Below are positions 55,111 through 62,562 of a stretch of DNA of 64,000 nucleotides, in pieces. The stretch covers positions 91,792,371-91,856,370 of the forward strand of contig JAVGWX010000002.1 of NCBI GenBank assembly GCA_036924085.1, written 5' to 3'. The notes below the pieces were generated by a model. The model made no database searches, was not told where the DNA came from, and saw only the letters and a list, made by a program, of their open reading frames with translations. Made by a program: the position numbers and the translations under genes. Position 1 is the stretch's first letter, and the number at the start of each line of letters is the position of its first letter. The DNA is from Ariolimax columbianus (lineage: Eukaryota > Mollusca > Gastropoda > Stylommatophora > Arionidae).

Positions 55111-55172
55111 CCCTAGAAACATACTGTTTCATCATGACAGTTTGTCTTCTTCTTCTTCTTCTGCGTACACAG

Positions 55173-58100
55173 TCAGAGAGTAACCATTATTTTTTCGAAA
55201 AAAGCGGCGGTCATCCTGAGACTCTCGCCACTACCATAGAGCTTGTCTTGCAGTTCCACTGGCAATGGCCACATCTGCTCTCTCTGATCCTCGAATGTCG
55301 GGCAGTTCTGCAGCAGATGTTCAGTGGTCATTTTACCAGTACCGCACGGGCATTCGTCGGTACACCCTATCTTCAATTTGTTGAATAGGTGGTACCTCAG
55401 TCTGTTGTGGCCAGTGCGAAGTCTGAAGACAACGACCTGCTCTCTTCGGTTCAACTGGTAATAGGCATCGTTTTTGGTGTAACCAGTATGTTCGGTTTGC
55501 CATTTGGTCATGTATCTGGCTTTGATAAGCCGTTTTGACTCTTCGTACGTCATACTGGTATCTGTTTGTGGTAGCCTTGCACCTTCTTTTGCCAGTCTGT
55601 CTGCCTCCTCGTTGCCTTGGATGTTGCAGTGTGACGGAACCCACTGTACCACTACCCTTTTTGGTGCGGACTGCTGGCACAGTTTGCAGAGTGCTGCTCT
55701 TAAGTCATTAAGCTCAGTGTTTTTCTGGCTTTTTAGCGCTGTGACTACGGCGAGAGCATCTGTCAGCAGGACTATATGGCTCTCATTTTCACCGTGTGTT
55801 ACCATTTCTTCCACTGCCGCCCTCAGTGCCCCTGCCTCCGCTCTGAAATTGCTTGTGTACTTACCAGTAGCGAATGACAGTGTTATTTTTCTGCCATTTG
55901 CTAGGTTCAGGAATGCTCCTGCCCCTCCGTTCTGTGTAGTGTTTGTTACAGAACCGTCGGTGTATGCATGGGTCCAGTCCATGCTTGGGTAGCTTTTCGT
56001 TATGAAGCTTAGGGTAGTGTCTCTCCTTTCTTTTTCAGTCTGGCAGTTTTTGTTTGCAATACCTGGTATATTTTCTACCACCTCTGGAAATATATCCTGC
56101 CTCCAAGTAGGTTTTCGTACAGTAGTGATGGGTTTTGGTGTTGTTAGTGCGTTTATGGGATCTTCGTGCATCTTTGCTTTGGCTATTTCTGCAAAGTTTC
56201 TCCGCTTTAGTTTCCCATTTCCCAGATTGTTTAGTCTCTGGTACATTGGATGGTCCGTCAGTCTTCGGAGTTTCTCTGACTGCAGCTGGGCTCTGCAGTC
56301 TCTTCTATCGGTCATGGATTGCAGTTTTGTAATCTTTTCAAGTTCTACAATTGGCGTTGACTTCATGCCTCCTGTTATAATTCTCATGGCTTGGTTTTGA
56401 AGTTTGTTAACTTTATCGAAGTTCGCCTTCGCTGCTGTTGTCCATGCCGCAATGCCATACTCGAGAACTGGTCTCACTCTTCCAGTGTACAGTTTCTTTA
56501 GTATGCCTTCGTCTGCTCCCCAGCTTGTGCCAGCAAGTTTCTTCATGATCGCCATTCTTTCTCTGGCTTTCATTCGGTTTCTCTCAATCTGACTTTTCCA
56601 TGTCATGCGCCGATCAAATGTGACTCCCAGATAGGCTGGGTTGTCGTTTGGCTGCAGGATTTTGCCATTTAGACTTAATTTGGTACTTTGGGGTTTTAAT
56701 GAGAGCGAGAATATTGTGCACGTGGTTTTCTCCTCGTTTATTTTGACCAGCCATGAGTTCGCCCACTCTTCCAGCGATGTTAGGGCCGTCTGCATCCGAT
56801 TTCTTGCTATGGTGAGATTCTTTTCAGAGGTCCACATAGCCAGATCGTCTGCAAACATTGAGCTATGGACTCTTCTTGGTATATTCTCTGTAATGTCGTT
56901 TATATATACCAGGAAGAGTGTGGGTGACAATACTCCCCCTTGGGGTACTCCCTGCTCGAGTGTCACCTTTTTGCTCATCTGCCCTTGTACTTGGACTCTG
57001 GCCGTTCTTTGTTTGAGGTAGTGATTGATCCACTTGTACATCTTCCCACAGACATCACTTCTTCTTAGCTTGACTCTAAGTCCATCCTTCCAGACTTTGT
57101 CAAATGCCTTTTCCAGATCCACCCAAACAGCTACTGTGTGTTTCTGTGCCTGGTAGGCATCTTCTATCTCCTGGGCTATGAGGATGACCTGGTCCTCAGT
57201 GGATCTGTGCTGTCTAAAGCCGGCTTGCTGTGGAATTAGTATTCGTTTTTCTTCCAGATGCCACATCAGTCTGGTGTTTATCATCCGTTCCATCAGCTTG
57301 CCGACACAGCTCAGTAGGCTTATGGGCCTGTATCCGTTTGGATCTGTTTTGTCCTTTCCTGTTTTTGGTACTGGTACCAGTATTGCATCTTTCCATGCCT
57401 GGGGTACAATACCCCTTTTCCAGCTTTGGTTCAGGACTGATAGTAGTTTCTTCTTCGCTGTTTGGCCCAGCCCCATCAGCATTTCGTTTGTTATCCCGTC
57501 TTTTCCGGGAGATTTCCTTTTCTTTAGTGTTCTCATAGCCTCTTCCATCTCGCGCATTGTTAGTTTGGCCATCATGTGCTCTTCAGGAGCCGTATTTATG
57601 TTTTCGTGTCCCTTTAGCTCTTCGCTAATGTCTGTATGCTTATCTGCAGGGACCTCGATGTGGTTTGCTCTGGCATAGTGATCGACAAAGGCGTTTGCGG
57701 CTTTCTTACCTGTGATCAAGTTCTCGCCTTGCTTGATAGTAATTTGTTTATTTGACGGGGTTTCGTCATTCATGGCTCTGACTAGCTTCCATAGCTTGTT
57801 CCCTTCTTTGTCCAGGTTTAGACTTTCCGTTTTATTTTTCCAGCTTTCTCTTGCTGTTTGCTTGAGAGTGTGTTTGTACTTCGCCGCGGCGGCTTTGAGG
57901 GCGATGTTTGCCTCCATGGATTTTTCTCGTTCTGCCATGTTCCTAGCATTTGTTACTGCATCTTCCACTTTCTGTAACTCATCATTCCAGTAGGGCTTAT
58001 AGTTTTTCCTAGCTTCTCTTGGGATGGTTTCAGTGGCGGCTTGCATTATTGCCTTGCTTAGGCTCTCTACCATGGGCTTCATTTTGGTGTTTCGTGTGTT

Positions 58101-61899: not shown

Positions 61900-62548
61900 T
61901 CTGTCGGAGACGTACTGTGTACAGCACACACCGGTCGGCGGAGGAAGGGTGTGTTTTTGTAAAAGGCCTCGCTGGGACGACGGCCGCAGGGACCGACCGA
62001 TTGACGGGACGGACGGACGGTTTGTTCCACCCGTCCCTCACTCCGTCGACCTAGGACCGCCTGACAGGGGCCTCCCACACGCACCAGACGACCGACCGAC
62101 CGGGCTCGCTCGAGGAGGGATGGCAGCGCTCTGTGCAGAACGGATCCCAACGACCTCGGCGATGAATTTCACTGGGACTAGAGACAATTTGGCCTGCCGG
62201 CCTGCCCTTCTCCGTAGGGAGAACGCAGGGCCTCGAGGCAACGATTCCTGCTTTCCATTTGCCGGTCACAAGCTCTTTGCGAGAGTCGGACCACCAGCGA
62301 GACGTACTGTCGAGCTCTGCTATAAGCCTTAGATAAATCACCACGGACGGACCACGTTTCCTGATACGGACCAGACTAGCGCACCTCGGTGGAGGAGCCA
62401 CTACCACAAACCGCACCCAATTCGCACTACGGGGAAAGGCAGGCGAGCGTTTTCCGCAAGCCCGCGCTATCGCTCCGCCTGGCGGGACTGAGATCGCTTT
62501 ACGAACACTGGTTGAAATTGAGTCGCTGCGGCGAGACAACTACCCCAG
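61900..62548 (-). other. Probable 5' external transcribed spacer of pre-rRNA
   Basis: About 650 bp directly upstream of the 18S 5' end and ending exactly at the target duplication. GC-rich, with GACGGACGGACGG-type short repeats (62010-62030) and GACCGACCGACCGG (62090-62102), typical of rDNA spacers and unlike the AT-rich flanks. Open frames here are composition artefacts. If the chimera came from a full-length transcript, 62548 would be near the Pol I start of this species. Confidence 0.65.
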
Positions 62549-62562
62549 ATGACAGTTTGTCT

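Follow-up and report, generated by a model that had tools for sequence, protein, structure and literature searches.

A dispersed LINE family of Ariolimax columbianus with pre-rRNA spacer and 18S sequence at its 5' end, and its probable source in 18S rRNA genes

The R elements are the textbook example of LINEs whose location is restricted to rRNA genes. R7 of mosquitoes is an R element resident in 18S. R2 and R8 belong to a lineage different from that of the LINEs with an APE endonuclease and RNase H. R8 of Hydra is resident in 18S (PMC5035012). The R2 elements carry target-derived rRNA duplications at their 5' ends, some of them with substitutions; the 5' end of the R2 RNA is made by a ribozyme, either at the junction or up to 36 nt upstream (PMC3774820). 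The R1 copies found outside the 28S gene have duplications of 3-14 bp and share up to 9 identical bp with the 28S site (PMC2718515). The LINE-1/28S rRNA chimeras were described as individual events, with 50-482 nt of 28S at 18 loci (PMC13174262). In the tripartite chimeras of Magnaporthe, other RNAs were joined, also as individual events (PMC2104539). For moths and coregonine fish, the spread of rDNA in the vicinity of mobile elements has been discussed; in the moths satellites were favoured over mobile elements, and in the fish Rex1 co-localises with rDNA (PMC10257491, PMC3585787). In the accessible parts of the open-licence literature, no LINE family was found described that has spacer and 18S as its regular 5' end.

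The window analysed here is a stretch of 64,000 nt from A. columbianus (contig JAVGWX010000002.1, positions 91,792,371 to 91,856,370). It contains a 7,401-bp insert in minus sense (55148-62548), which lies between two exact copies of the 14-bp sequence ATGACAGTTTGTCT (55134-55147 and 62549-62562). These are the only exact matches within the window; with up to two mismatches, one extra site was found at 42597, against 0.85 such sites expected from shuffles. One copy of the target duplication adjoins the (GAA)n tail at the LINE 3' end (55148-55163), and the other adjoins the outer end of the spacer. In the 5' to 3' direction, the insert consists of a 649-nt spacer (61900-62548), the 5' two-thirds of an 18S gene up to ...GACTCAACACGG (60660-61899), three tandem rRNA-derived units (A, B, and the rest of C; 60085-60659), a diverged 28S 3' end (block D, 59607-60074), about 520 nt assigned to the LINE 5' UTR (59088-59606), a LINE with one ORF (55173-59087), and the tail. 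The first-pass annotation had placed this repeat exactly; it had also proposed that a pre-rRNA/LINE unit landed outside rDNA in one insertion. A single target-primed insertion is supported by the duplication enclosing the whole insert.

The 18S part looks intact, and two-thirds of the gene are carried, as claimed earlier: the window region 60600-61899 matched positions 1-1271 of the Rfam SSU model with 1077 bits, the final positions falling past the junction. In a comparison with four contaminant references, 15 mismatches were counted over the 372 columns on which all four agree, a count that says little about intactness. The 18S runs unbroken into the spacer past its 5' end, which indicates that the template was an unprocessed pre-rRNA. 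The tandem units were called hairpin repeats in the first-pass annotation. Judged from sequence comparison, they consist of degenerate 28S pieces in alternation with 63-nt 18S pieces that have decayed as well. When the blocks C, B, A, and D were compared with a real 28S stretch, each scored above 1000/1000 mononucleotide shuffles. The comparison was repeated with first-order shuffles and two further 28S references. Block D then scored 130 and 101, the highest shuffle scores being 34 and 44, and exceeded 200/200 shuffles with both references, as did block B. The score of block A was reached by 1/200 and 15/200 shuffles, and that of block C, which can be aligned to block B, by 10/200 and 39/200. 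The diverged 28S 3' end matched Rfam LSU 3005-3399 at 60007-59607 (66.3 bits), and the blastn matches of block D to the two 28S references extend up to 60072-60074. Every tandem unit opens with a 63-nt 18S piece that ends within one base of the stop of the intact 18S. The embedded fragments A (60284-60346) and B (60465-60527) differ from the intact 63 nt at 4 and 9 positions, respectively. No 28S similarity was found in the stretches of about 47 nt that separate each 18S fragment from its hairpin, and the 28S comparisons detected no rRNA similarity in the 5' UTR part. The fold of 60020-60760 was no better than that of shuffles (z -0.99). An age test on the three units of the window copy gave P 1.4e-4 for all columns and 0.056 for the hairpin core alone; it hinges on the fast part of the unit, and weight was therefore placed on the comparison of seven other loci described below. 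A 29-nt stretch is common to the spacer (62461-62489) and the ORF start (58958-58984) at 86% (blastn E 0.01); this similarity was reached by 35/300 shuffles and is not significant.

The single ORF of the LINE (1304 aa from stop to stop) matched Pfam families of endonuclease (PF14529/PF03372), reverse transcriptase (PF00078), and RNase H (PF00075). These three domains in one ORF, together with target-primed insertion and a target duplication, characterize an APE-type LINE with RNase H. Its named relatives are from the snails Littorina saxatilis and Batillaria attramentaria, and no relatives were found in the viral contig and genome contig collections. Two 5'-truncated copies are also present in the window at unrelated sites, one on the minus strand (17947-19143, 98.3% identical, 12-bp duplication) and one on the plus strand (50270-51132, 93.2% identical, 15-bp duplication). 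Directly past the target duplication of the former (about 17919-17928), the flank reads AACACGGGAA in LINE sense, like the 18S at the junction; this likeness was spotted post hoc and may be a chance coincidence. Pieces of more distant LINEs of this kind, with about 31-43% identity to the ORF, lie at 43250-43901, 41535-42014, and 497-757. The window also contains long minisatellite arrays at 12953-14550, 6319-7610, 19195-20287, and 54425-55104 (for example, a 21-bp unit repeated 76 times), the last of which is near the insert.

The host assembly (2,294,143,704 bases, 401 contigs) was searched with the leader of the insert. At least 40 scored places were obtained on many contigs, all at 99% or above and with the window's own place included; the number is a lower bound, with 3029 candidates at first look. 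Twenty of the other 39 scored places were sampled for copy comparison, and 17 of them begin at the same base as the window insert, with spacer and 18S included. Two exceptions begin further in (L026 and L036), and one has a rearranged front (L032). The bases directly before the start are AT in 16 of the 17 copies and AC in L023. Some of these 17 copies have deletions or are broken off before the tail; the (GAA)n tail itself is common to most of the compared copies. Both the 5' start and the tail could be used for a duplication test in 15 of 21 copies, the window copy counted. Fourteen of these 15 have their own, different target duplication, with flanks that agree over 11-14 bp; in 13 copies the duplication exceeded all 210 cross-paired controls, and that of L025 equalled the best control. 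The remaining copy, L031, has no target duplication; its 5' start is doubled within about 50 nt (985-1033 of that locus), perhaps through template jumping at the 5' end of the RNA. The mean pairwise difference among the copies is 0.8-1.3% in every part, and the variants are mostly singletons, a pattern such as a recent burst would leave. The copies form a family, and the window insert, as bounded above, represents it at full length. A LINE confined to rDNA is ruled out by the different target sites of the full copies and by the two additional copies in the window. Site-specific insertion of the kind found in the rDNA R elements was not observed for these copies, all of which lie outside rDNA.

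The join between 18S and the element (60659/60660), ACACGG/CCAACACTG with the slash at the junction, is identical in the 20 compared copies. Seven further loci, found with 5.8S and 28S queries, also hold an 18S/element join, in the form ACACGG/CCAA(A)CACTG in six and ACACG/CCAACACT in L050 (the same place as L048). Compared with the family majority, these seven loci have 29/2577 differences on the 18S side and 129/758 on the element side. The differences per locus are 0-2.3% and 10-27%, respectively, each with P <=0.018. The totals are sums over the seven loci, whose independence is an assumption, and L057 contributes only 17 nt of element side. The count required the motif CAACACGG?CCAA or ACACGCCAA, and so favours loci that are intact at the junction. 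Three loci with embedded junctions only were left out (L039, L046, L060), as were those without the exact junction motif (L038, L040, L041, the first, shorter stretch of L043, L045, L047-L049, L053, L055, L056, L058, L059). The sequence ACTCACCCGG was present in none of the loci examined. Such a recurrent junction speaks against random insertion in 18S.

A similar contrast was seen in two other comparisons. Within the burst, variants shared between copies are rarer in 18S (4/1239) than in the ORF (60/3914; Fisher P 3e-4), and the same picture was obtained for non-CpG columns (3/1073 vs 53/3656). The contrast of 18S is marginal against the spacer (P 0.054) and the leader (P 0.040), and singleton variants show no difference by part (P 0.80). 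L043, which was not included in the seven-locus totals, has the order spacer-18S-units-28S as in the family. Its differences from the family majority are 10/627 in the spacer (with 24 further gap columns), 4/1239 in 18S, and 25/1032 in the units and 28S block (with 25 further gap columns); the 18S thus compares with 35/1659 in the spacer, units, and 28S block (Fisher 1.2e-5). A shorter aligned piece of this locus gave 14/651 in the spacer and 0/551 in 18S, and its LINE part past insert position ~3006 could not be aligned to the family. A stable 18S side and a drifting element side at one join would be expected of sources that lie within working 18S genes and are transcribed as part of pre-rRNA. 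From this conservation, we infer that the 18S of the family is identical with working rRNA.

We consider it probable (about 0.65) that the insert belongs, as a full-length copy, to a dispersed LINE family with source copies in 18S rRNA genes, just after ...TTTGACTCAACACGG; these sources would be cotranscribed with pre-rRNA and able to spread genome-wide. The uniform 5' end, located 649 nt before 18S, and the contrast between 18S and element point to sources inside 18S genes that are cotranscribed, and the dispersed insertions indicate an endonuclease not confined to 18S. Transcription of the source copies with pre-rRNA would give an RNA made of the spacer, the 18S 5' part, and the element. In this scheme, transcription, presumably by Pol I, would begin where the family has its 5' end, and the spacer would be the 5' ETS. 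The LINE's own enzyme would then carry out target-primed reverse transcription of that RNA from the (GAA)n tail at unrelated sites, and each full-length copy would be flanked by an 11-15 bp duplication and preceded by about 1.9 kb of pre-rRNA sequence. Residence in rDNA might be kept by array turnover, with no need for site-specific reinsertion. The rDNA-resident LINE source proposed in the first-pass annotation has thus gained indirect support from the shared junction and the 18S/element contrast at the seven loci, whereas confinement of the family to rDNA does not agree with the dispersed targets. The earlier statement that the unit inserted once is not supported either, given the scored places that match the leader and the common start base of 17 of the 20 compared copies.

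Several results were weighed against a source in 18S. The predicted 3' junction (LINE tail, up to 28 nt, and then downstream 18S) gave 0 matches in the host assembly. The 18S sequence downstream of the site was found at 176 places in the assembly, on contigs C1 to C13 among the 100 matches listed. A 1300-nt 28S query had no full-length match beyond its own place among the 40 of 105 candidates that were scored. Tandem rDNA is therefore probably missing from the searched assembly, and the negative result for the 3' junction is weak, though it still counts. The targets of the dispersed copies do not look 18S-like, which was also counted against source copies in 18S, as was the marginal shared-variant contrast with spacer and leader.

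Dispersed rRNA pieces are abundant in this genome outside the described family too, as seen from the downstream 18S places and from 5.8S, for which at least 40 places spread over many contigs were scored, with 53434 candidates at first look. Eight of the 12 loci from the 5.8S search also match the insert within the 3.2 kb examined (L038, L039, L042-L047). ITS1-5.8S-ITS2 is joined to the 5' start of the family in L043, and ITS2 is joined to unit B in L039. Pieces of 28S lie ahead of 18S in L044, L050, L051, and L052, and ahead of the spacer in L057. These scrambled joins look like template jumps among pre-rRNA and LINE RNA. A contig from the viral collection (L001) starts with a eukaryotic 28S piece (1-135, Rfam LSU 126.8 bits), followed by other-looking DNA, and is probably a chimeric assembly.

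The origin of the 18S part might also be explained in other ways. The LINE might own it: spacer and 18S would have been captured long ago and would serve as a normal 5' UTR with an internal promoter, the 18S being kept by selection on the LINE RNA. Such a leader would be carried with a uniform start, as it is by every 5'-complete compared copy, and the 3'-junction search of the assembly found no LINE in rDNA. However, the 18S side is nearly constant while both of its neighbours diverge, and fragments A and B, which are embedded in the same leader, have decayed; this explanation is rather unlikely. A second explanation is recurrent template switching guided by homology, in which the LINE has only a short 18S fragment and its enzyme jumps to pre-rRNA at each insertion. 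Chimeras with rRNA are known from LINEs (PMC13174262), scrambled pre-rRNA joins are plentiful in this genome, and the element encodes RNase H. However, fresh jumps would be expected to differ between insertions, and many of them to begin on mature 18S, which is more abundant, whereas the same join and the same 5' start were found in 17 of the 20 compared copies, so that switching at each insertion is quite improbable. A one-off chimeric retrogene or an assembly artefact, compatible with the window taken alone, is contradicted by the at least 40 scored places that match the leader, by the common join and start of 17 of the 20 compared copies, and by the separate duplications of 14 of the 15 testable copies, and has hardly any probability left.

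A source in 18S genes would place the insert, probably, as a variant of the rDNA-associated LINEs. The R elements such as R8 are similar in their constant junction between rRNA gene and element, conserved rRNA side, diverging element, and presumed cotranscription. They differ from the present family in that genome-wide copies with upstream pre-rRNA, an APE endonuclease, and RNase H are found here, and rDNA residence is deduced indirectly. Like R2, the copies have target-derived rRNA at the element 5' end, although their starts lie at one uniform position in the spacer, about 1.9 kb upstream. R1 is likewise an rDNA LINE that inserts elsewhere, and the accessible text on its off-target copies describes no upstream rRNA (PMC2718515). 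The LINE-1 and Magnaporthe chimeras also combine a LINE with rRNA or other RNA on its 5' side, in a single insertion that has a target duplication; the join described here is family-wide, and involves 1.2 kb of 18S plus spacer. Pokey of Daphnia is also present both in rDNA and elsewhere; it is a DNA transposon, and carried pre-rRNA is unmentioned in the accessible text of the report (PMC3315735).

Taken further, it seems reasonably likely that the LINE has long been resident in 18S, with its own 5' sequence up to a quarter different between lineages, and has flooded the genome with copies that have a pre-rRNA 5' end. The rDNA would then offer the LINE protection and strong transcription from which to spread, and parts of rRNA genes would be dispersed steadily by the LINE. 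In a bolder form, the 18S part may be a selected, working piece of the LINE RNA. If true, a LINE with a source in 18S and genome-wide insertion would separate residence from site specificity. It would also provide a concrete route by which pieces of rRNA genes are scattered; 18S, spacer, ITS, 5.8S, and 28S pieces are all present here. Caution would then be needed over false 18S and ITS loci in assemblies.
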